Notes under the pieces: generated by a model
Told to the model about the DNA's origin: nothing
Seen by the model: the letters and a program-made list of their open reading frames with translations, nothing else
The model's database searches: none
Part shown: piece by piece, positions 3,277 to 54,492 of the stretch
Position numbering within the stretch: the stretch's first letter is position 1
Layout: each line of letters begins with the position of its first letter
Translations under genes and position numbers: made by a program
IMG/VR virus record: IMGVR_UViG_3300046323_000133
Span: 1 to 55,019 of that record
Source of the DNA: a virus
Length of the DNA: 55,019 nucleotides
Direction: 5' to 3' (one strand)

Positions 3277-3290
3277 TTTTATGCCGGTCC
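3277..3290 (-). promoter_or_regulatory. GGACCGGCATAAAA motif upstream of 3258
   Basis: An exact copy of the recurrent GGACCGGYATAAAA motif lies on the minus strand 18 bases before the start codon of the next gene. Other copies or close variants are at 13780, 14074, 14397, 15545 and 22591, always read in the direction of local transcription. The role (promoter part, leader or protein site) is inferred. Confidence 0.6.
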
Positions 3291-3326
3291 AAATCGTTTA
3301 TTCTGTATTAGAATATGGAATATTGT

Positions 3327-8508: not shown

Positions 8509-8835
8509 TTAGTGTAAGTATGTATCGTACTCAGACGCCTTGTCAAGTTCTTCTAAGAATTCAGGGTCTGCATGTTTAGCTAAAAGCTTTTCTGCATTGT
8601 CTGAGAAAAAGTTGTCGATAGCGTCGTTAGCGGCTTCTATCATTTTAGCCTGTTGGTCGTGTGAGTAGTTACGCATATCTATTTCAAAGTCCATGCCAGA
8701 TTCGTCAATGCCTATTAGTCTTATATCATTAGCGATGAAGTCGTAGTCGGGACCTGGTAACTGTTCGACTTCTACTGTAAAATCTACAAAGGTGTCTGCG
8801 TCTATTTGTACTGAGTATGTTGTTTCGTCGTTCAT
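8509..8835 (-). CDS. Acidic protein, first well-supported gene after the minus-arm leader
   Basis: The 108-residue protein is strongly acidic (about a quarter Asp and Glu by eye) with a beta-rich start and helical C-terminus. It could be a DNA mimic or an inhibitor, but only charge supports that. Its leader carries the 21-bp sequence (8841-8861) that is also found before the first gene of the plus arm. Confidence 0.75.
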   Translation of the reverse strand: MNDETTYSVQIDADTFVDFTVEVEQLPGPDYDFIANDIRLIGIDESGMDFEIDMRNYSHDQQAKMIEAANDAIDNFFSDNAEKLLAKHADPEFLEELDKASEYDTYLH

Positions 8836-8840
8836 AATCT

Positions 8841-8861
8841 CTCCTTGGTTAAAGGTACATA
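8841..8861 (-). repeat. 21-bp leader repeat, minus-arm copy
   Basis: On the minus strand this contains ATGTACCTTTAACCAAGGAG plus one more matching base, identical to 10621-10641 on the plus strand. It ends in the AAGGAG ribosome-binding site of the acidic gene at 8835. Confidence 0.9.
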
Positions 8862-8903: not shown

Positions 8904-9059
8904 TTAGTAGGCTAGCAGTAAAAATATTATTAGAATAATTATCATTGTCATGTTATATTTGTTATATTGCATAGTTTGTGCCTGGGTTTTAGAGGCTATA
9001 AAGGACTTGAAGTACAGTAAGCGTTTAAGCTTTAAACACCTGTTAGCGTAAAATGTCAC
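8904..9059 (-). CDS. Possible small membrane protein (weak)
   Basis: A frame of up to 51 codons from a GTG at 9059 ends in a hydrophobic helix (MTMIIILIIFLLLAY). No good ribosome-binding site precedes any start; an internal ATG at 8972 would give 22 residues. It may be a real small membrane protein or chance. Confidence 0.25.
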   Translation of the reverse strand: MTFYANRCLKLKRLLYFKSFIASKTQAQTMQYNKYNMTMIIILIIFLLLAY

Positions 9060-9272
9060 TTTTAGTTCTTAAAAAGCTACGTATTGTGTTGAGACGCTTA
9101 AGGTCTTGGCCTGTACTTTGCATAATTAAATGGTGTGCCAGGTTTAAAAGACTAAACGTACCACAATGTAGTACAATCGTACCAAAGTTGTGAACGTAAG
9201 CGTACGCGACAGCGTGCAAGAAGTGTGCCTATTTACTAGCAGGTCTTTAAAGCTTGCAAGTTTAATGCCAGT

Positions 9273-9974
9273 CTAATACTTCGCTTCTTTGTGTTTTAAA
9301 TTAACTGATAGTCCTAGGGGGCCTAACACGCTATTATAATACTCATGAGTACCTTTACAGTCTAAGCCTAGTAGGCCAAAGATTTCTAAGTCTTTAGGGC
9401 GTAGTTCGCCTTGAGGGCTTGTAACGTGCCAAAGCCAGCAGTGGTTTAGGATGCGTCTAATCTTGTTGTACGCCCAGTAATGGGACTTATAGAGCTGTAA
9501 CGGCTTAAAAGCGTTAGGTATTTCTACATTAGGATACAGTTTACAGAAGGCGGCTAAATCTCCAGTGTTCGCAAGGGCTGATATATCTCTGTATTCTGCT
9601 TGTTCTATGTAGCAGTTTAATAAAAATAAACAGTTAGTGTACGACTTACCGTACTTGTGCCTAGCTGCTCTTGAATTCATGTAGTAATTTATATAGGTTT
9701 GAACGTAACTGATAGCCTCTGAAGGGTCGTGCTGGTACTCAAAGGACTTAAAGTTCTTAGTGCCACGTAAAAAAGGCGAAGAAAGTCCAGGCAGACAGTC
9801 CGAAAAGGACTCAATGTCAGCATGTCCCGATTTTTGCAATTTAAGTTGCCACTCACGAAATATCTTATTAACTTGCTCAAGTGTGTATCCAGGGGGTATG
9901 TAGTACCCAGCGCCTTCATAGTGCGTTCTAGCTCCTGAAACGGTCGAATTAGGTTGTTTTTGTCTTTTAGCCAT
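9273..9974 (-). CDS. Unknown protein from a probable leaderless mRNA
   Basis: The 233-residue protein starts at 9974. It has a basic N-terminus (MAKRQKQPNSTVSGART), a Pro/Gly/Tyr stretch (GYYIPPGYT), and a central helical part rich in Tyr (YVQTYINYYMNSRAARHKYGKS). No family is recognised. A near-consensus sigma70 promoter (9981-10009) ends only 6 bases before the ATG and there is no ribosome-binding site, so the mRNA probably starts at or next to the ATG. Leaderless starts are typical of some phage repressors, and the place beside the divergent control region suggests a regulator or replication initiator. That role is inference. Confidence 0.75.
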   Translation of the reverse strand: MAKRQKQPNSTVSGARTHYEGAGYYIPPGYTLEQVNKIFREWQLKLQKSGHADIESFSDCLPGLSSPFLRGTKNFKSFEYQHDPSEAISYVQTYINYYMNSRAARHKYGKSYTNCLFLLNCYIEQAEYRDISALANTGDLAAFCKLYPNVEIPNAFKPLQLYKSHYWAYNKIRRILNHCWLWHVTSPQGELRPKDLEIFGLLGLDCKGTHEYYNSVLGPLGLSVNLKHKEAKY

Positions 9975-10356: not shown

Positions 10357-10646
10357 GCTAACTCCTTTATAAGCTATACATTAACTGAGTGGTTATCTAG
10401 TCTGGAAAGAAAAGTATCGACTCAATTGTTGTATATTATATATATATAGCTGCAATAGCTTTGCCAGGTTATGAGCAGTATATGCCATTTAACAGCTTAA
10501 ACCAGTAAACAGTAACAATTTACGGCACACAGCGGTTAAAGCTTATACATGTAAGGACTGTCTAAAGGTCTAGGTTGCTGATGAAGTAGGTATGTAGTGT
10601 GCAATAGTATTAATAGAGACTATGTACCTTTAACCAAGGAGTTCAC
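10357..10646. other. Divergent intergenic region between the two arms
   Basis: About 290 bases separate the first minus-arm gene from the first plus-arm gene. It holds an alternating AT run (10436-10448, TATATATATA), a TTAAAGCTTA element (10536-10545) and the 21-bp leader repeat at its right end. I could not find a clean sigma70 promoter for either arm here; a regulated or non-canonical promoter is likely. Confidence 0.6.
10621..10641 (+). repeat. 21-bp leader repeat, plus-arm copy
   Basis: Identical to the minus-strand sequence at 8841-8861; it ends with AAGGAG, the ribosome-binding site of the transglycosylase gene at 10647. Confidence 0.9.
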
Positions 10647-11195
10647 ATGAAAAGACTTATATTAGCTGCTTTTACAATATGGATATTAATAGTTATTATA
10701 GTATTAGACAAGGTTAACGAGACTTCTAAACTTGGGCCTATTAAAGACTATGTAGAAACTGTCAATGGAGACGGAACTGGTTCTATAGAATTTATAGATA
10801 AGGTAGCTCCAAAGTACAAGCTATTAAACAGATATATAGATGAGGCGGCTATAAAGCATAATGTAGACCCTAGCTTGCTTAACTGTATATTCCATGTAGA
10901 ATCTACGCATACTTTAGATGCTGTAAGTAAAACTGGAGACTATGGTATTGGTCAAATAAATATACGCTCTTGGAAGAAGTTTAGTCCAGATAGGCTATTA
11001 ACAGACCTCCAGTACTCCATAAACGCTTCAGCAGAGGTTCTAAGTTTCTATAAACAATTAGCAGCACAAGACGAGCCAACAACATGGCCTTGTCGCTATA
11101 ACGTTGGAGGCGCTTCATTAACTAAAGGAACTGTTGGGGCGCGCTGCGTCCATTACATGTCCAAATTGAACAGTTGTTTGCAATCTAAAAACTAA
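10647..11195 (+). CDS. Lytic transglycosylase (SLT) with N-terminal membrane anchor
   Basis: The 182-residue protein starts with a hydrophobic segment (LILAAFTIWILIVIIVLD, residues 4-21) that may be a membrane anchor or a signal-anchor-release signal. The SLT domain follows: HNVDPSLLNCIFHVESTH with catalytic Glu85, then GDYGIGQINI (98-106) and a C-terminal helix bundle containing YNVGG. It cleaves peptidoglycan glycan strands. As first gene of the early arm it is odd for a late endolysin; it may help DNA entry or be delayed by membrane anchoring. AAGGAG lies 5 bases before the ATG, inside the shared leader repeat. Confidence 0.9.
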   Translation: MKRLILAAFTIWILIVIIVLDKVNETSKLGPIKDYVETVNGDGTGSIEFIDKVAPKYKLLNRYIDEAAIKHNVDPSLLNCIFHVESTHTLDAVSKTGDYGIGQINIRSWKKFSPDRLLTDLQYSINASAEVLSFYKQLAAQDEPTTWPCRYNVGGASLTKGTVGARCVHYMSKLNSCLQSKN

Positions 11196-11859
11196 TTGTG
11201 CCGGACCTACTGGCGCAGTGTGCCACTTTAAAAAACGAAGTGGCGCACCACTATCCTTAATGATATCATATACTTGGAAGCCCGTGCGCCAGTGTGCCAC
11301 TAAAAAGACACTTCAGACGCCATTTTCGTATATGGCTATGTGCCCAAATCTACCACAATAGAACTGACACTCAGCTCGCATATACTCGTTTTAAGAAAAA
11401 ATATTTTCCGGATTGTCAAAACACTGGCACACTGGCACACTTTGATTATAACTGTTATATAATATATAAAAGAGAATATAGAAGACTTAATAGTACTAAA
11501 AGTCCTAAATACCTAATATTGTTAACTAAATACCAAATTACTAAAAGTGGCGCAATAGTGGCGCACGGACTGGCACACTGGCACACGGAAGGGCTTAAAG
11601 TGCGCCAGCGACTCCAAATAGTGTGCCGGTCCATTAGTTTAGTGCGACAATAAAATAGTGACGTTTTAGGCTGACACTCGACTACTTCTTAAACAGTTTA
11701 CCCGACCCAAATAGAGTATAAATGAACTAAACTGGCCTGCAAAGTGCATCAAGTCTTATACTTACTTAAACACTGCATAAACTTTACTTATGTTAAGTAT
11801 TAAAGAAGCTTAATCGGGTCTACAAAGATTAACCGATTTACAAACTAAAAAGGACTAAC
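11196..11859. other. Non-coding region; candidate replication origin
   Basis: About 660 bases without a convincing gene. At least eleven copies of the heptamer TGGCRCA (or its complement) occur between 11211 and 11607, in two GC-rich groups flanking an AT-rich core (about 11441-11540). This is the classic build of an iteron origin: protein-binding repeats next to an unwinding element. From 11640 to 11859 only AT-rich leader sequence is seen. Confidence 0.65.
11211..11607. repeat. Iteron cluster, heptamer TGGCRCA
   Basis: Forward copies start at 11211, 11241, 11425, 11433, 11548, 11559, 11571 and 11579; reverse copies (TGYGCCA) start at 11219, 11285, 11293 and 11601. Three pairs are spaced 8 bases apart (11285/11293, 11425/11433, 11571/11579) and 11211/11219 form an inverted pair. 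An 11-bp stem with one mismatch can form from 11218 to 11248. Near-copies (TGTGCCG) lie at 11197 and 11622. Confidence 0.85.
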
Positions 11860-13772: not shown

Positions 13773-13779
13773 TACTATT

Positions 13780-13793
13780 TGGACCGGCGTAAA
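13780..13793 (+). promoter_or_regulatory. GGACCGGCGTAAAA motif
   Basis: A one-base variant of the recurrent motif lies 20 bases before the start of the gene at 13814. The bases after it (TTTTAAAAAGGAA) also match the leader of the gene at 14103. Confidence 0.55.
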
Positions 13794-14102: not shown

Positions 14103-14327
14103 ATGATTAAATTTATAATACTAACAGCACTAACAGCTTTACTACTACTATCAGGCAATTTACGAGCTTCAAATCTCGGATGTATCATAGAAGACCGCAT
14201 ATTATACACTGTAACCGAGAACGATGGAAACATAGTTGTGGCGCGCAATAAAGACAGTAAGAACATAGAATTGGTTATAATTAGACAGTTAAAAGACGTC
14301 TTAATAATAGACTGCTTAGCAAAGTAA
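14103..14327 (+). CDS. Small exported protein
   Basis: The start is placed at 14103 (AAGAAAG-type site); the frame is open upstream but those codons overlap the promoter. The 74-residue protein has a clear signal peptide (MIKFIILTALTALLLLSGNLRA) followed by a small domain with two Cys that could form a disulphide. It is followed by a terminator (14365-14386), so it forms its own short transcription unit. Confidence 0.7.
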   Translation: MIKFIILTALTALLLLSGNLRASNLGCIIEDRILYTVTENDGNIVVARNKDSKNIELVIIRQLKDVLIIDCLAK

Positions 14328-14364
14328 CAATTTACGCTAACATTTGACTGAAACTTACACACTA

Positions 14365-14386: not shown

Positions 14387-14396
14387 AGCGTTTTAA

Positions 14397-14410
14397 GACC
14401 GGCATAAAGT
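14397..14410 (+). promoter_or_regulatory. AGACCGGCATAAAG motif
   Basis: A two-mismatch copy of the recurrent motif lies between the terminator and the start of 14439; it also shares TCTGCAA after it with the copy at 3277. Because a terminator precedes it, a promoter is needed here, which favours a promoter role for the motif. Confidence 0.55.
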
Positions 14411-14438: not shown

Positions 14439-15041
14439 ATGATTATAAATGCCACTTTAATAAGTTCACTAAATGCTTGTTCAGACCGATATGATAATTA
14501 CGTATTACATTATGGTACAACAGACTATGACGTCGATACTTTTTTAGACTTAGACAATATTACTTATCAAGATAAAATATGGGTGTTAAGACGCATTATG
14601 AACGCCACACAAGCTAGAATTTTTGCAATTCTATGTGCGGATAGCGTTTTGCCTATTTTTGAATCTAAGTATCCTAATGATTACAGAGTAAGAAACTGTC
14701 TTAACTTCTTAAAATCTATAAAAGATTTAGGAAACTTAACAGAAGAAGAAAAGACTGAGCTAAAATTTCAAAGAAAAGCTGCTGCTGCTACTTACTCTGC
14801 TGATGCTGCTACTTACTCTGCTGCTGCTGCTTATGCTGATGCTGCTACTTACTCTGCTGCTGCTGCTGCTACTTACTCTGCTGCTGATGCTGCTACTTAC
14901 TCTGCTGCTGCTGCTGCTACTTACTCTGCTGCTGCTGCTGCTACTTACTCTGCTGCTGCTGCTTATGCTGCTTATGCTGATGCTAAAATACAGCAACAAA
15001 ATTTAAACTTAGAATACTTAAAACAAGCAATGAGTATTTAA
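14439..15041 (+). CDS. Protein with Ala/Thr/Tyr/Ser tandem repeats
   Basis: The 200-residue protein has GGAGG before its ATG. Residues 1-113 form a helical domain. Residues 114-182 are a repetitive run of units such as AAATYSA and AAAYADA, encoded by GCT-rich tandem repeats (14778-14984). The last residues are helical. A similar host or phage family with A-x-A-Y repeats is known to me only vaguely. It stands immediately before the primase (its stop overlaps that ATG by design: TAAATG). Confidence 0.75.
   Translation: MIINATLISSLNACSDRYDNYVLHYGTTDYDVDTFLDLDNITYQDKIWVLRRIMNATQARIFAILCADSVLPIFESKYPNDYRVRNCLNFLKSIKDLGNLTEEEKTELKFQRKAAAATYSADAATYSAAAAYADAATYSAAAAATYSAADAATYSAAAAATYSAAAAATYSAAAAYAAYADAKIQQQNLNLEYLKQAMSI
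14778..14984 (+). repeat. GCT-rich coding tandem repeat
   Basis: About 207 bases are built from variants of a 21-base unit (four GCT codons, then ACTTACTCT) with GAT and TAT codon substitutions and unit-length changes. It is in frame throughout and is likely to vary in copy number by slippage. Confidence 0.85.
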
Positions 15042-15872
15042 ATGTACAAAACACAACTAGAACACATATTCCAAAATGAACAGTTTATATTTACTGGGGA
15101 CGAATATTACTTACTACCTATAGACCGTTCAGCTTTCTTCTGCATTAATCCTGTTAAAAATTTAGACAATCGTCAATTAGAAAACTTATCAAACTTACAG
15201 AACTTCCTCATAGAATTTGACGAAGCATCTTATGAACAACAGTTCAAATCTATTGCGCAAATAGAAGCTTCTGGATTAAATATTGCTAGTGCAGTATTTT
15301 CAGGTTCTAAAAGTATACACCTAATATTTAGCATGGCCGAAACTCTTCAATTAGATTATAAGACAGCTTGGTTAGCCCTAGCCTCAGAAGTTCGCAGTAT
15401 AACAGGACTAACAGCAGACGCACAATGTAAAAATGCAAATAGGCTTAGCAGACTTGCAGGATTTGTGCGCCCAGATACTGGAAAAGTTCAAGAGCTGCTG
15501 CACCTTGGAGGCTTCATCAAGAATGATAAACTAATGGAATTAGTGGACCGGCATAAAATTAAGCACGCTGTAACTCAAACAACAGTTAGCCAAGACCCTA
15601 CCATGAGCGTTGAGAAGTTTGAATTAATACTAATAAAGAGGCAAAACGGACTCTACTCAAAAATAGCTAGAGTAGACGAATGGGCAGGAAGTGTAGGAAT
15701 GTATAAAGAACTATTTAACATTACCTGCTGGGCTATAGACGCTACAGGAGTTCCAGAAAGTACCTTCAAACAGTTTGCGCAAAATAAAATATTTCCTGCG
15801 CTATTAGAAGCCGGTTACCCAATAAACAAACTTGACAAGCCTATTGATAATGCTTACACTTATAAAACATAA
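15042..15872 (+). CDS. AEP-type DNA primase
   Basis: The 276-residue protein shows archaeo-eukaryotic primase features: IEFDE (57-61, metal-binding acidic motif) and SGSKSIHLIF (87-96) with the s-x-H motif His93, then NANRLSRLAGFVRPDTG. It would make primers for replication. The next gene is an SF3 helicase, the usual partner in primase-helicase modules of this type. An internal copy of the GGACCGG motif is at 15545-15558. Confidence 0.8.
   Translation: MYKTQLEHIFQNEQFIFTGDEYYLLPIDRSAFFCINPVKNLDNRQLENLSNLQNFLIEFDEASYEQQFKSIAQIEASGLNIASAVFSGSKSIHLIFSMAETLQLDYKTAWLALASEVRSITGLTADAQCKNANRLSRLAGFVRPDTGKVQELLHLGGFIKNDKLMELVDRHKIKHAVTQTTVSQDPTMSVEKFELILIKRQNGLYSKIARVDEWAGSVGMYKELFNITCWAIDATGVPESTFKQFAQNKIFPALLEAGYPINKLDKPIDNAYTYKT
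15545..15558 (+). promoter_or_regulatory. GGACCGGCATAAAA motif inside the primase gene
   Basis: An exact copy of the recurrent motif, encoding D-R-H-K in this frame. It could be an internal promoter for the helicase or a coincidence of coding. Confidence 0.35.
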
Positions 15873-20784: not shown

Positions 20785-22981
20785 TATGTTGAAAAGTTCT
20801 TTATATTGGTCTTGGGATATCGAGTCCACAGGGCTTAATGTAAGAAAAGACAAAACTATAGGATTTGGTTCTTGTAATCCTTTAAATCTCAATCAATACT
20901 TTTATATAATTACTAAAGAATGGGTAGATAATCAGCTAGTAGAACTACTTACTTTAGAAGATGTAAAACCAGTTTTAGACGCTCTTAAAACCAAAAGATT
21001 AATAACATTCAATGGTTCATACGATACGCGATTAACATACCATTATCATAAGTCTAATTTAATAGATTCTATATATTGTGACGTTATGTTGCTAGTACAC
21101 ACTTGTGATGAAAATAGAATATCATATAAAATGAAAGACATTGCAGAAGACGCTTTTGGCAGTAGTGCTAAAGATTCTCAAAAAGATATGTTGGAGTCTA
21201 TAAAAGCTAATGGAGGAACAGATAAAGAATATTATAAAGCCGATTCTAATTTAATGGCATTGTACGGCATTCAAGATAATATATTAACTTGTAAACTGTT
21301 TAATCACTATAATCGCATACTAAAAGCTGAAGGCCTTGAAAAATTCTTTTATGAAGATGAAGTTATGCCTCTTTACAGACTTGTAACCATACCTATGGAG
21401 TTAAAGGGAGTACCTCTAGATTTACCTTTAATGCATCAATGCTTAACAGATATTAGGACAGACATGGACAAGCTACATACAGACATACAAGCAGCTATAG
21501 AGCCGCATTTAACTGATTTTAAAGCCTGGTACTTAAATAAAGAATATCCTGGAATACAGTTATCTGGGCAGTTTTTAGAAGCTTTATGCGCCATTATTGC
21601 GCCATCAAACTGGCCTAAAACTAAAGCCGGTACCCATAGTTTCTCAAAGACCGCGTTTAAAAAGCTGCCAGAGCTATTAGAGACAGATTTGTGGGCATAT
21701 CAGCAAGGAAATAAGCGCATAAGTAAAGAGCTAGCTGATAGTGTACGTTTAAAGCTGTTTCAAGATTCCGGAGAACAGTTCATGTTTAACATACTGTCTA
21801 AGCATCATTTAAAGAAGTTATTTTTTGAAGAGTTGGGAGAAACTCCAAGTTCTACAACAGATAAAGGGAATCCTCAAGTAGAAGATGATTTTTTAGAACA
21901 AATGGCACAAAAATATGAATGGGTAAAGTGGCTACGTACTTACAACAAATTAACTAAGATTAAATCTACATATATTGAACGCTTTTTAGATAAGCAAGAA
22001 GATGGTATTTTTTACCCTTCATACTTTATGCATAAAACAACATCGGGCAGATTTTCTGGAGATTTACAACAATTACCCCGTATTAAAACTCTAGAAGATG
22101 AAAATGACCCGATTTTTTTAAAACATAACAATAACATTAGAAATTTTTTCATTTCAGGAGAGGGTAAGAAATTAGTAGACGCCGATTACAGTTCACTAGA
22201 AGTTGTTGTGTTCGCAGATGATGCACAGGATGAGGCCCTACTAGACGTTATCAATAAAGGATATGACTTGTATTCACAAGTTGCTATTAACGTTCATGGA
22301 TTAACGGAGTATTCAGCAGATAAAAAAGCTGCTAACTTTTTAAAGAAGCATAAGCCAGAATTACGTCAACAAGCTAAGGCATTCGCTCTAGGATTTAGAT
22401 ATAATTTGCAACCATATAAACTTAGTCAAGATTTAGGAATAAGTGAGGCTGAAGCTACACGCCTACAAAAAGGATACTTCAAATCATATCCTAGACTAAA
22501 AGAACGTATGGATGAAATTATTGAATCGGCTAAAAAGAATGGGTATGTAGTTTCTAAAGCTGGTAGAGTTAGAAGATTAACAAACTTGGTGGACCGGTAT
22601 AAAAAATATGGTGAGGTGTTGTTTAACTCTTTAGACCTTTGGAAGGAATACCACGAGAGACACAATGATTATAATCGCATGAAGCAGATTGCAAAAGAGT
22701 GTAGAGGGGCTGTTAATAACAGTTTAAATTTCCCAATTCAATCGTTTGCGGCGTCTATAGTCAGTAGAGCTTCTATTGAGATTGCAAAAGAGTTAAAGAG
22801 TAGGGGACTACAGTCTTATATATGCATGAGCACTCACGATGAGCTGTGTTTATTAAGCCCAGACAATGAGGTGGCAGAAGCTTCTTTAATTTTACGAGAC
22901 AAAATGGAGAATACAACAAAATTATCGGTACCTTTAGAGGCTGAGCCAATAGTAGGAGTGAGATATGGAGATGTTAAGTAA
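20744..22981 (+). CDS. Family A DNA polymerase with 3'-5' exonuclease
   Basis: The 745-residue protein has exonuclease motifs (WDIESTG with Asp25 and Glu27; TFNGSYD; LYGIQDN) and polymerase motifs A (DADYSSLE, Asp479), B (RQQAKAFALGFRYN, about 540-553) and C (STHDELC, Asp699/Glu700). Size and layout are like T7 DNA polymerase. The start at 20744 overlaps the nuclease gene; a later ATG at 20786 lacks a ribosome-binding site. A GGACCGGTATAAAA motif copy lies within it at 22591. It is the replicative polymerase. Confidence 0.95.
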   Translation: MIVRQKEHINLVLNMLKSSLYWSWDIESTGLNVRKDKTIGFGSCNPLNLNQYFYIITKEWVDNQLVELLTLEDVKPVLDALKTKRLITFNGSYDTRLTYHYHKSNLIDSIYCDVMLLVHTCDENRISYKMKDIAEDAFGSSAKDSQKDMLESIKANGGTDKEYYKADSNLMALYGIQDNILTCKLFNHYNRILKAEGLEKFFYEDEVMPLYRLVTIPMELKGVPLDLPLMHQCLTDIRTDMDKLHTDIQAAIEPHLTDFKAWYLNKEYPGIQLSGQFLEALCAIIAPSNWPKTKAGTHSFSKTAFKKLPELLETDLWAYQQGNKRISKELADSVRLKLFQDSGEQFMFNILSKHHLKKLFFEELGETPSSTTDKGNPQVEDDFLEQMAQKYEWVKWLRTYNKLTKIKSTYIERFLDKQEDGIFYPSYFMHKTTSGRFSGDLQQLPRIKTLEDENDPIFLKHNNNIRNFFISGEGKKLVDADYSSLEVVVFADDAQDEALLDVINKGYDLYSQVAINVHGLTEYSADKKAANFLKKHKPELRQQAKAFALGFRYNLQPYKLSQDLGISEAEATRLQKGYFKSYPRLKERMDEIIESAKKNGYVVSKAGRVRRLTNLVDRYKKYGEVLFNSLDLWKEYHERHNDYNRMKQIAKECRGAVNNSLNFPIQSFAASIVSRASIEIAKELKSRGLQSYICMSTHDELCLLSPDNEVAEASLILRDKMENTTKLSVPLEAEPIVGVRYGDVK
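22591..22604 (+). promoter_or_regulatory. GGACCGGTATAAAA motif inside the polymerase gene
   Basis: A copy of the recurrent motif (C to T at one place) encoding D-R-Y-K. It may be an internal promoter for the downstream HNH gene, or coincidence. Confidence 0.3.
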
Positions 22982-45692: not shown

Positions 45693-46010
45693 TTAAAATA
45701 TCCAAAGAGAAATAGTGCAAGGCACTGTAGCTTGTAAAGTCAAAAACTTAGTAACGTCGTTTCCAGTAGTTACAAGTTTTAACTGAGAAAAATTATCATT
45801 TTTACAAAGAATGTATCCTCTAAAAGAGCGATTTAGTTTATGCTCTACTAAAGTATCGGAAGTGCCTATTAGTATGTTTTCTAAATAAACACCGTCTAGA
45901 AGTATGGACCGACTTAAATTTCCAAAAGCTGTTTCTACATTAGTTTGAGCTGTAAAACTCTCTTGGTTTCCACCGGCTTGCTTTCTAAACGGTTGTGCTC
46001 TTCCTGCCAT
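45693..46010 (-). CDS. Small structural protein after the adaptor
   Basis: The start is placed at 46010 (AAGG upstream, one base after the preceding stop); the frame is open 24 codons further into the adaptor gene. The 105-residue protein is beta-rich (SRSILLDGVYLENILIGTSDTLVEHKLNRSFRGYILCKND), like small phage virion proteins that bind the tail hub. Unknown exact role. Confidence 0.65.
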   Translation of the reverse strand: MAGRAQPFRKQAGGNQESFTAQTNVETAFGNLSRSILLDGVYLENILIGTSDTLVEHKLNRSFRGYILCKNDNFSQLKLVTTGNDVTKFLTLQATVPCTISLWIF

Positions 46011-51963: not shown

Positions 51964-54492
51964 TTAGTCGTCCCAGTTTTCAACTCCAGAATCAAATATG
52001 TAGTCCATGTCCTGGTCTGTTATATTATCGTCTTCGTTAAAGTTCTTTTTGGCCTCTAAAGCCTCTATATCTCTTTGTTCTAATAAATCCATGTATTCTT
52101 GAGTATTGGTTTTAGGAGCTCTGATAGAACCTTCAGCTTCAATATAATGCTTACAATGCCTCCATGCGTACAAAACGGCATCTCCAATATCTGTATGATA
52201 AATATCGGAAACTTTTAACTTTGTAGGGTCCGAACGGTCCCATACTACTAAACTAGTATCTTCTTCAAACCTGGAGCCTTTGTATACTTTCATACGAGCT
52301 GTTCTTAAGTCATCATTCATTAGCTCAATAAACTCAAATTTTCTATGTTTTTCTGCTACTTCCATGTTTAAGCCGTGACGCTGTCTAACCTCTTCTTGGA
52401 TTTTTTTACCAAGACCTCCACCATCCATTACCATTTTTACAGGCATGTACTTGTCGTTTAAAGCTTTAATTTTAGCTATTAATACAGAAATGGTTTGCTT
52501 ATCCTGTATATCTTCTTCAATTAAATACACATTGCCATCTTGATAGTTATATCCTAATACAGCTATAGCGTCTGAATCATTCCATCCAATATCTACTCCA
52601 AATATATAGACCATGCGACCTGCTGGAGGAGCTGTAAATAGATTTTTCATAGGACTAAATTTGAATACTAGGCTATTTTCATCTTTTTCCCAGTCGCCAT
52701 ATGTCTCTCTTCTGTATGAAGGGTCATTTTCAGTAATTCCCTTTAGTTCTCTTTCTTCTTTTAGTCGAACATTTAAATCTTTAGCTGGTAAACTAAATTT
52801 ACCTTCTGGATTGTGCATATGAGGATTGTTAAAAGCATTCCATTTAAAATTAGGAATCATAGGACTTGTGCAATATTCATAAAAGGGGCCTGCTGGAACT
52901 GGTCCAGGAGTACCTGTTAATCCTAATTCTCCATTTAAATCTCGTAGTCCAGGTAACAAAATATCATTAATTAGTGTACGTAAATATGGTCTAAAAGACT
53001 GGGCCTCATCTACATAAGCTTTTCTCAGCTTTAAACCTCTGTACTTTTCAATTTCAGCTTCATCCTTTGCTCCACCACATCGTATTGTAGATTTAGTATC
53101 ATTGAAAAACATTTCTAAACGGGTCTCGTCAGTCTTAACGTTTATGCGCCACTTATCTGCTACTCTTTTTAACTCATCCCAAATAATAGAACGAGCGCTT
53201 CTTGATGTTAAAGTTAAATATAAACATAAAACATTAGATTCGGACATACAAGTATGTACAAAATCTGCTATAATTGTATTAGTATTATGAGTTATGATAC
53301 CGTTAGACAGCATATACAAATGAGTATCGTTATCCACTTCTAAATCATAGCATTCAGCTAAATATGGCTTACTTATATTAGTAAGCCCGTATCCTTGTTT
53401 TGATTTATTTCTAGATTCCAGAGACCTGTATTCTTTTTTAAATTTTTTTCTATCACATACTATATACGGGTTCAGTCGTTCCAGTAAATAGCAGGTATCT
53501 AGAGAGTTAGAAGTCCTTATGCTACATACCGGTCCATTTTTATACTTAGGACGATTATCTTTCATTAAGATACAATCTATTTGGAAAAGACAACTTATTA
53601 ACTCTTTGCAAATTTCTAAAACAGAAAGGGCTTGCATACTTATTTCAAACGACACTCTTTTCTTGTCATATCTCACACAGCCGTCTGTGTCCAATAAACC
53701 AGCTAAAAATTGCATTTGACTTTCTCTGTTCCAAGAAAATATTACATCCTTGTCTACAATTTTCTCGTGGGCATATTTATTATGTAACCAATCGCTGTAG
53801 TATGGGATATCAAAATGTTTTATATTTTTAAAGCTATATGTAAAGTTATACTGAGAGTTTTTATGCGCTGTGCCTAAAACAGTCTCTAATTTACTTATGA
53901 TGGAATAGTCATCAGAGCTGATACTGATGAAATGCTCTCTGCTACAGCCGTCTCCAATAAGAGCACCTAGTGCGTATGCGAAGGGCTCATTCTTACCACT
54001 CTTAGAGAATAGTTCGTGCTTTTTTATGGCAATAGAAGACTCTCCAATATTAGTGAGTTTTTCCAAAGTAGTTACTTTTTCAACACTGTTTTTATCTAAA
54101 AATAGAAAAGGATGTTGTTTTGTAGCAGTTACTAAAACCTTATTACCTCTTTTTATATCTACGACCGACTTTAGTCCTTTGTATACGTTATCTAATACTT
54201 TAGTTTCTGAAATGCTTCCATCTTTATTGTATCCATACACAATATCTCCAATATTAACATTTTCTATCGCTATAGAACCTCTAGAAGTTGCTACTAATGA
54301 CCCTTTTATTAGACATTTACCTGCTCTACGTGAAGTACAAGCGGACTTTATAATCTTTTTTTCTAAGGCAAAAGCCAACTGTTCTGGGAAGCAAAATTCT
54401 TCAATTTTAAACTGCAAAGCCGCTGCAGCCCTTTCGGACTCAGCGGCACGTTTTTTTAATTCTTTTAATAGTTTGGACTTAGATACTGCCAT
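51964..54492 (-). CDS. terL: Terminase large subunit interrupted by an intein
   Basis: The full frame is 842 residues. Without the intein (residues 60-403) it is 498. The ATPase shows Walker A split as SRRAGK | TNTIIADF, Walker B KAYVDEAQS (491-499) and a coupling motif LTGTPGP. The nuclease has FGVDIGWND (Asp634), KMVMDGGG (Asp690) and YHTDIGDAV (Asp768, Asp771). It cuts and packages DNA at the portal. The C-terminus is acidic. The intein must be spliced out to give a working P-loop. Confidence 0.95.
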   Translation of the reverse strand: MAVSKSKLLKELKKRAAESERAAAALQFKIEEFCFPEQLAFALEKKIIKSACTSRRAGKCLIKGSLVATSRGSIAIENVNIGDIVYGYNKDGSISETKVLDNVYKGLKSVVDIKRGNKVLVTATKQHPFLFLDKNSVEKVTTLEKLTNIGESSIAIKKHELFSKSGKNEPFAYALGALIGDGCSREHFISISSDDYSIISKLETVLGTAHKNSQYNFTYSFKNIKHFDIPYYSDWLHNKYAHEKIVDKDVIFSWNRESQMQFLAGLLDTDGCVRYDKKRVSFEISMQALSVLEICKELISCLFQIDCILMKDNRPKYKNGPVCSIRTSNSLDTCYLLERLNPYIVCDRKKFKKEYRSLESRNKSKQGYGLTNISKPYLAECYDLEVDNDTHLYMLSNGIITHNTNTIIADFVHTCMSESNVLCLYLTLTSRSARSIIWDELKRVADKWRINVKTDETRLEMFFNDTKSTIRCGGAKDEAEIEKYRGLKLRKAYVDEAQSFRPYLRTLINDILLPGLRDLNGELGLTGTPGPVPAGPFYEYCTSPMIPNFKWNAFNNPHMHNPEGKFSLPAKDLNVRLKEERELKGITENDPSYRRETYGDWEKDENSLVFKFSPMKNLFTAPPAGRMVYIFGVDIGWNDSDAIAVLGYNYQDGNVYLIEEDIQDKQTISVLIAKIKALNDKYMPVKMVMDGGGLGKKIQEEVRQRHGLNMEVAEKHRKFEFIELMNDDLRTARMKVYKGSRFEEDTSLVVWDRSDPTKLKVSDIYHTDIGDAVLYAWRHCKHYIEAEGSIRAPKTNTQEYMDLLEQRDIEALEAKKNFNEDDNITDQDMDYIFDSGVENWDD
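53284..54315 (-). mobile_element. Intein with LAGLIDADG homing endonuclease in terL
   Basis: The 344-residue intein begins with Cys60 (CLIKGSLVATSRGSIAIENV) and ends IITHN with Asn403 before Thr404, the first residue of the C-extein. Splicing blocks are all there: N-block with GDIVYGYN; VTATKQHPFL (T-x-x-H); YDLEVDNDTHLYMLSNGIITHN at the end. Two LAGLIDADG motifs, LGALIGDG (174-182) and LAGLLDTDG (263-271), mark an active-type homing endonuclease. It sits between Lys and Thr of the Walker A loop, a typical intein site. Confidence 0.95.

Follow-up and report, generated by a model that had tools for sequence, protein, structure and literature searches.

An identical 21-mer, TATGTACCTTTAACCAAGGAG, stands before two genes of the window (the whole 55,019-nucleotide stretch of DNA analysed here), once on each strand, and on a modest balance of probability we take it to be a translation-start module, that is, an SD with about 15 nt upstream of it, which became the same before two unrelated genes after the split from the closest known relative. 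The two copies match exactly (21/21), as the original prediction had it, and both end in AAGGAG 5 nt before the ATG of gene 8835(-) or gene 10647(+). This is a strong, well-spaced ribosome-binding site (RBS), placed on two outward-facing transcription units that point away from one common control region. Two details of the prediction need correction. Minus-strand genes 9974, 10192 and 10356 lie upstream of gene 8835, which is thus only the first after a 437-nt gap and does not open the leftward arm; nor are the leaders shown to be short, the gap ahead of gene 10647 being 290 nt.

The window, a virus record, bears a repeat of 127 nt at its ends and therefore probably represents a complete genome of ~54.9 kb. 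Among its products are an SU10/P22-type portal, DNA polymerase, primase, exonuclease and lytic transglycosylase. The DNA and protein queries tried gave no match to named phages, and no MCP relatives were found in GTDB genomes. The closest relative is IMGVR_UViG_3300049924_000170 (G001, with coordinates given as L003), with synteny over nearly the whole genome. Genes 8835 and 10647 are not homologous to each other; the latter is about 46-50% identical to its G001 orthologue.

Table 1. Features of the window, with the relative's counterparts under remarks (E-values are from the G001-only profile and are somewhat optimistic, see text)
Feature	Position	Strand	Sequence	Remarks
21-mer copy 1	8841..8861	-	TATGTACCTTTAACCAAGGAG	3' end is the SD (AAGGAG) of gene 8835
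21-mer copy 2	10621..10641	+	TATGTACCTTTAACCAAGGAG	3' end is the SD (AAGGAG) of gene 10647
Gene behind copy 1	8509..8835	-		108 aa, no known family; 52% identical to G001 orthologue L003:10075-10392
Gene behind copy 2	10647..11195	+		182 aa; N-terminal hydrophobic segment and SLT lytic transglycosylase domain (Pfam SLT 4.1e-8)
~30-bp GTGAC element	9033..9061	-	AGTGACATTTTACGCTAACAGGTG	Faces leftward arm; held-out E 8.7e-6
~30-bp GTGAC element, weaker	10510..10532	+		Faces rightward arm; held-out E 0.037
~30-bp GTGAC element	11657..11684	+		Before gene 11860; E 0.021; counterpart L003:4626(-)
~30-bp GTGAC element	14322..14349	+		E 3.4e-4; counterpart L003:701(-)
-24/-12-like site	9255..9271	-	CTGGCATTAAACTTGCA	Core TGGCATTAAACTTGCA recurs at L003:9348
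-24/-12-like site	9215..9231	-	TAGGCACACTTCTTGCA	
-24/-12-like site	8968..8984	-	CAGGCACAAACTATGCA	Nearest to gene 8835 on the same strand
-24/-12-like site, weak	10587..10603	+	TAGGTATGTAGTGTGCA	Before 21-mer copy 2; 12.25 of 16
-24/-12-like site	10451..10467	-	CTGGCAAAGCTATTGCA	Faces gene 10356(-)
Recurrent motif	3278-3293	-	GGACCGGCRTAAA	
Recurrent motif	13778-13793, 14393-14408, 15542-15557, 22588-22603, 45903-45918	+	GGACCGGCRTAAA	

That such a repeat is far from chance had been claimed from the outset, and the claim stood up. Among the ~70-80 leaders of the genome 21 nt is the longest string common to any two, and the second-longest is 12 nt. Column shuffles of the leaders gave maxima of 11-16 (n=60) and, in a further set, 11-14 (n=30), and those anchored on the SD 9-17 (n=3000), never above 17; the pair is therefore not due to chance, an origin which is in practice excluded. 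Roughly half of the 21-mer is nevertheless unremarkable. The stretch TTAACCAAGGAG, about 11 of the 21 nt, resembles the ordinary RBS context of the genome, [AT]AA[AC]NAAGGAG, so that only some 10 nt are truly unexplained. This context is what might be cited for a coincidence between two AT-rich RBS regions, a reading which the shuffles render scarcely credible.

The 60 nt adjoining each copy are unrelated (similarity score 8.0, vs a shuffle mean of 8.2), and alignment of the whole upstream regions was not significant, 25 of 300 shuffles scoring as high. Since the genes are not homologous either, only the leader is common to the two sides. No third copy occurs in the window at up to three mismatches, where shuffles predict 0.

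The sequence was sought in related phages, as the original prediction had proposed, and was absent: there is none in G001 at ≤3 mismatches, none in the more distant L004 record and none in IMG/VR. The orthologous leader pair of G001 has in common a different string, the 12-mer TAACAAGGAGAC, whose length is matched or exceeded by 0.14% of all G001 leader pairs and by 2.5% of AAGGAG leaders. In the 15 nt that precede AAGGAG, the two window copies are alike at 15/15 positions, vs only 4/15 and 5/15 when compared with their G001 orthologues, and the identity therefore appears younger than the split; most likely it arose after the lineage had parted from G001. Such a lineage-specific module would likely have arisen recently, one leader being copied over the other or the two being homogenised repeatedly. 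A stretch copied in this way would give genes 8835 and 10647 equally strong initiation, and with it products in a fixed ratio early in infection.

Other relatives possess their own genome-specific leader repeats, of 18-36 nt, which exceed their shuffles and mostly precede non-homologous genes. The repeat of G003 is 25-26 nt long (25 nt before adjacent genes), that of G010 is 36 nt, and those of G001, G004 and G005 are 18 nt, although in G001 and G005 this is only slightly above the 30 shuffles of each (null maxima 16). By the same method lambda, N4 and phiEco32 gave at most 15 nt, T7 25 nt (a promoter-RBS fusion) and Adephagia 19 nt, GGGATAGGAGCCCACAATG, which is the Start-Associated Sequence (SAS).

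The SAS of cluster K mycobacteriophages is a short asymmetric repeat (13-bp consensus GGGATAGGAGCCC, 11-19 copies per genome) which contains the SD, lies within 3-7 bp of the start codon, precedes unrelated, mostly non-structural genes and is conserved between subclusters (PMC3203893). The 21-mer is similarly placed, with its AAGGAG 5 nt from the ATG of unrelated genes. It shares only the AGGAG core with the 13-bp consensus, however, has two copies at ≤3 mismatches rather than 11-19, and is missing from its relative G001 whereas the SAS is conserved across related genomes. By analogy the 21-mer would work like an SAS, yet it is not one.

A second comparison concerns promoters fused to the SD. 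The T7 class II promoters phi1.6 and phi4.3 (TAATACGACTCACTAAAGGAGACAC) form an exact 25-nt leader repeat which likewise ends at the SD, before unrelated genes. In G010, a member of the same phage group, a leader unit (TATATAATGATAGTACGAGTAAACTTAAAAAGGAGT), a -10-to-SD cassette, is repeated before non-homologous genes, with related sequence ahead of four. The 21-mer might be the downstream portion of a phage-specific promoter running into the SD, in the style of these exact promoter-to-SD repeats (TATAAT to AAGGAG in G010), and TATGTA could serve as a poor -10. T7, for its part, encodes the polymerase which reads its repeat and has many more promoter copies. The G010 repeat takes in a -10 of sigma70 type and part of the -35, and stands in varied form before its four genes, whereas the window pair shares the SD-proximal 21 nt only. 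We consider the promoter reading unlikely. Hmmscan of the larger window proteins revealed no RNA polymerase family, although in a genome scan with PF00940 for a phage RNA polymerase the controls were silent. The upstream flanks are unrelated, and a sigma70 scan of the window (18 sites found vs 8.6 expected) placed no consensus -35/-10 at either copy. The 21-mer could, all the same, also contain core-promoter bases.

The G010 cassette itself, at L060 2770-8237(-), has the form TTGCAA..TATAAT..AAAAAGGAG and precedes four mostly unrelated small genes. In the window, TTGACT-17-TATGCT stands directly before the ATG of gene 9273-9974(-), whose transcript is possibly leaderless; the product is a 233-aa conserved protein of unknown function, 69% identical in G001 and with a remote match in G003.

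Since the copies are perfect 21-bp inverted repeats around a gene-bearing segment of 1.76 kb, one might also think of the ends of an invertible segment or mobile element. This is very improbable and is contradicted by the synteny with G001, where the genes keep their order and orientation and the repeats are missing. The genes of the segment include no recombinase or transposase, the flanks show no target duplication, and the repeats end on SDs, each equally far from its ATG.

The proposal that an RNA or a protein acts on the repeat, and so regulates the two arms together, divides into two parts. Common control of the arms is plausible: the G001 leaders are unusually alike as well, with their 12-nt string, and a ~30-bp GTGAC element (below) is common to both arms in both phages. 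The 21-mer would be at most one lineage-specific part of such control. That it is itself the binding site of a trans-acting RNA or protein governing translation or transcription of both arms is, in our opinion, rather unlikely, even though the identity is non-random and sits at matched positions. It is not conserved in G001 or elsewhere in IMG/VR, there are two copies only, half of its bases follow the usual RBS context, and no candidate regulator was identified. Nor is there significant structure: the leaders fold no better than shuffles (z 0.94 to -0.52 on 60-nt stretches). A 21-mer hairpin is unsupported and, with no Rfam match either, so is an RNA regulatory element (riboswitch, thermometer or similar).

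Better arguments for shared control of the arms than the 21-mer are provided by two other features of the control region. The first is a conserved ~30-bp element, GTGACATTTTACGCTAACAG, which faces outward ahead of both arms in the window as well as in G001. Of the form AGTGACATTTTACGCTAACAG..TTGAC, it is dispersed in front of early transcription units and is possibly an operator or enhancer. G001 copies lie at L003:704(-), 4627(-), 5975(-), 9608(+) and 9953(+). A profile built from G001 copies alone and then run on the window found exactly four copies (Table 1), with no other match below E 1.9 and, in the reversed window, none below 0.84. Because the pattern that first picked out the G001 copies owed something to the window, these held-out E-values are somewhat optimistic. 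The copy at 14322..14349(+) has a small gene on one side and an intrinsic terminator on the other, ahead of gene 14439.

The second feature is a group of -24/-12-like sites. TGGCA-N6-TTGCA is a form of sigma54 promoter (examples in PMC3844500), and sites near the 21-mer, not the 21-mer itself, conform to the sigma54 type in their GG-N10-GC, their TGGCA/TTGCA context and their spacing-specific enrichment. The 1.8-kb control region of the window holds 8 such sites vs 0.67 in mononucleotide shuffles. Clusters above shuffles, mostly spacer-specific, occur in the window, G001, G003 and G007, where a spacer of 6 gives 8, 17, 20 and 14 sites, respectively, a peak vs other spacers; in the window spacer 3 also yields 8, and the peak there rests on clustering. 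The clusters were located at 8968-9271 and 10451-10603 of the window, at L003:9296-10047 and L003:5526(-), and at L061:575-1168. At each arm of G001 such a site precedes AAGGAG by 15 nt (CTGGCACGCTATCTGCT and CTGGCAGCGTACTTGCA). The window counterparts, 10587(+) and 8984(-), are weaker or farther away, and this promoter type therefore does not explain the 21-mer itself. Neither a sigma54 DNA-binding domain nor an activator domain was found encoded in the phages (controls positive), and thus a host factor would be needed. The control region suggests a phage group which relies on -24/-12 (RpoN-type) promoters; in a limited literature search we found none described.

One might go further and suppose that a single module switches both arms, composed of the outward-facing GTGAC element, -24/-12 promoters read with host RpoN, and an identical start leader evolving in concert. 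The leader sequence would then change from phage to phage, always together on the two arms. We regard this as decidedly doubtful. Were identical SD leaders before unrelated genes to vary in step from one related phage to the next, they would offer a testable instance of concerted evolution or leader copying, and would be relevant to the Start-Associated Sequences, which are themselves unexplained.

Several minor observations may be added. The motif GGACCGGCRTAAA occurs 6 times in the window vs 0.46 expected; before genes 3258 and 14439 it runs on as CCGGCATAAANTCTGCA, which is -24/-12-like and also stands before the G001 orthologue of gene 3258. The intergenic stretch 11200-11660 is rich in short, iteron-like GGCACACT/GTGGCGCAC repeats and is a possible replication origin. 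The terminase large subunit gene, 51964-54492(-), contains a LAGLIDADG/Hint-like insertion, a probable intein, and at the same point G001 is without the insertion. Lastly, gene 14439-15041 includes, at 14780-15002, a long, alanine-rich tandem repeat of 12-nt units (GCTGCTACTTACTCT-like), the G001 counterpart of which is a longer array, L003:1-306.
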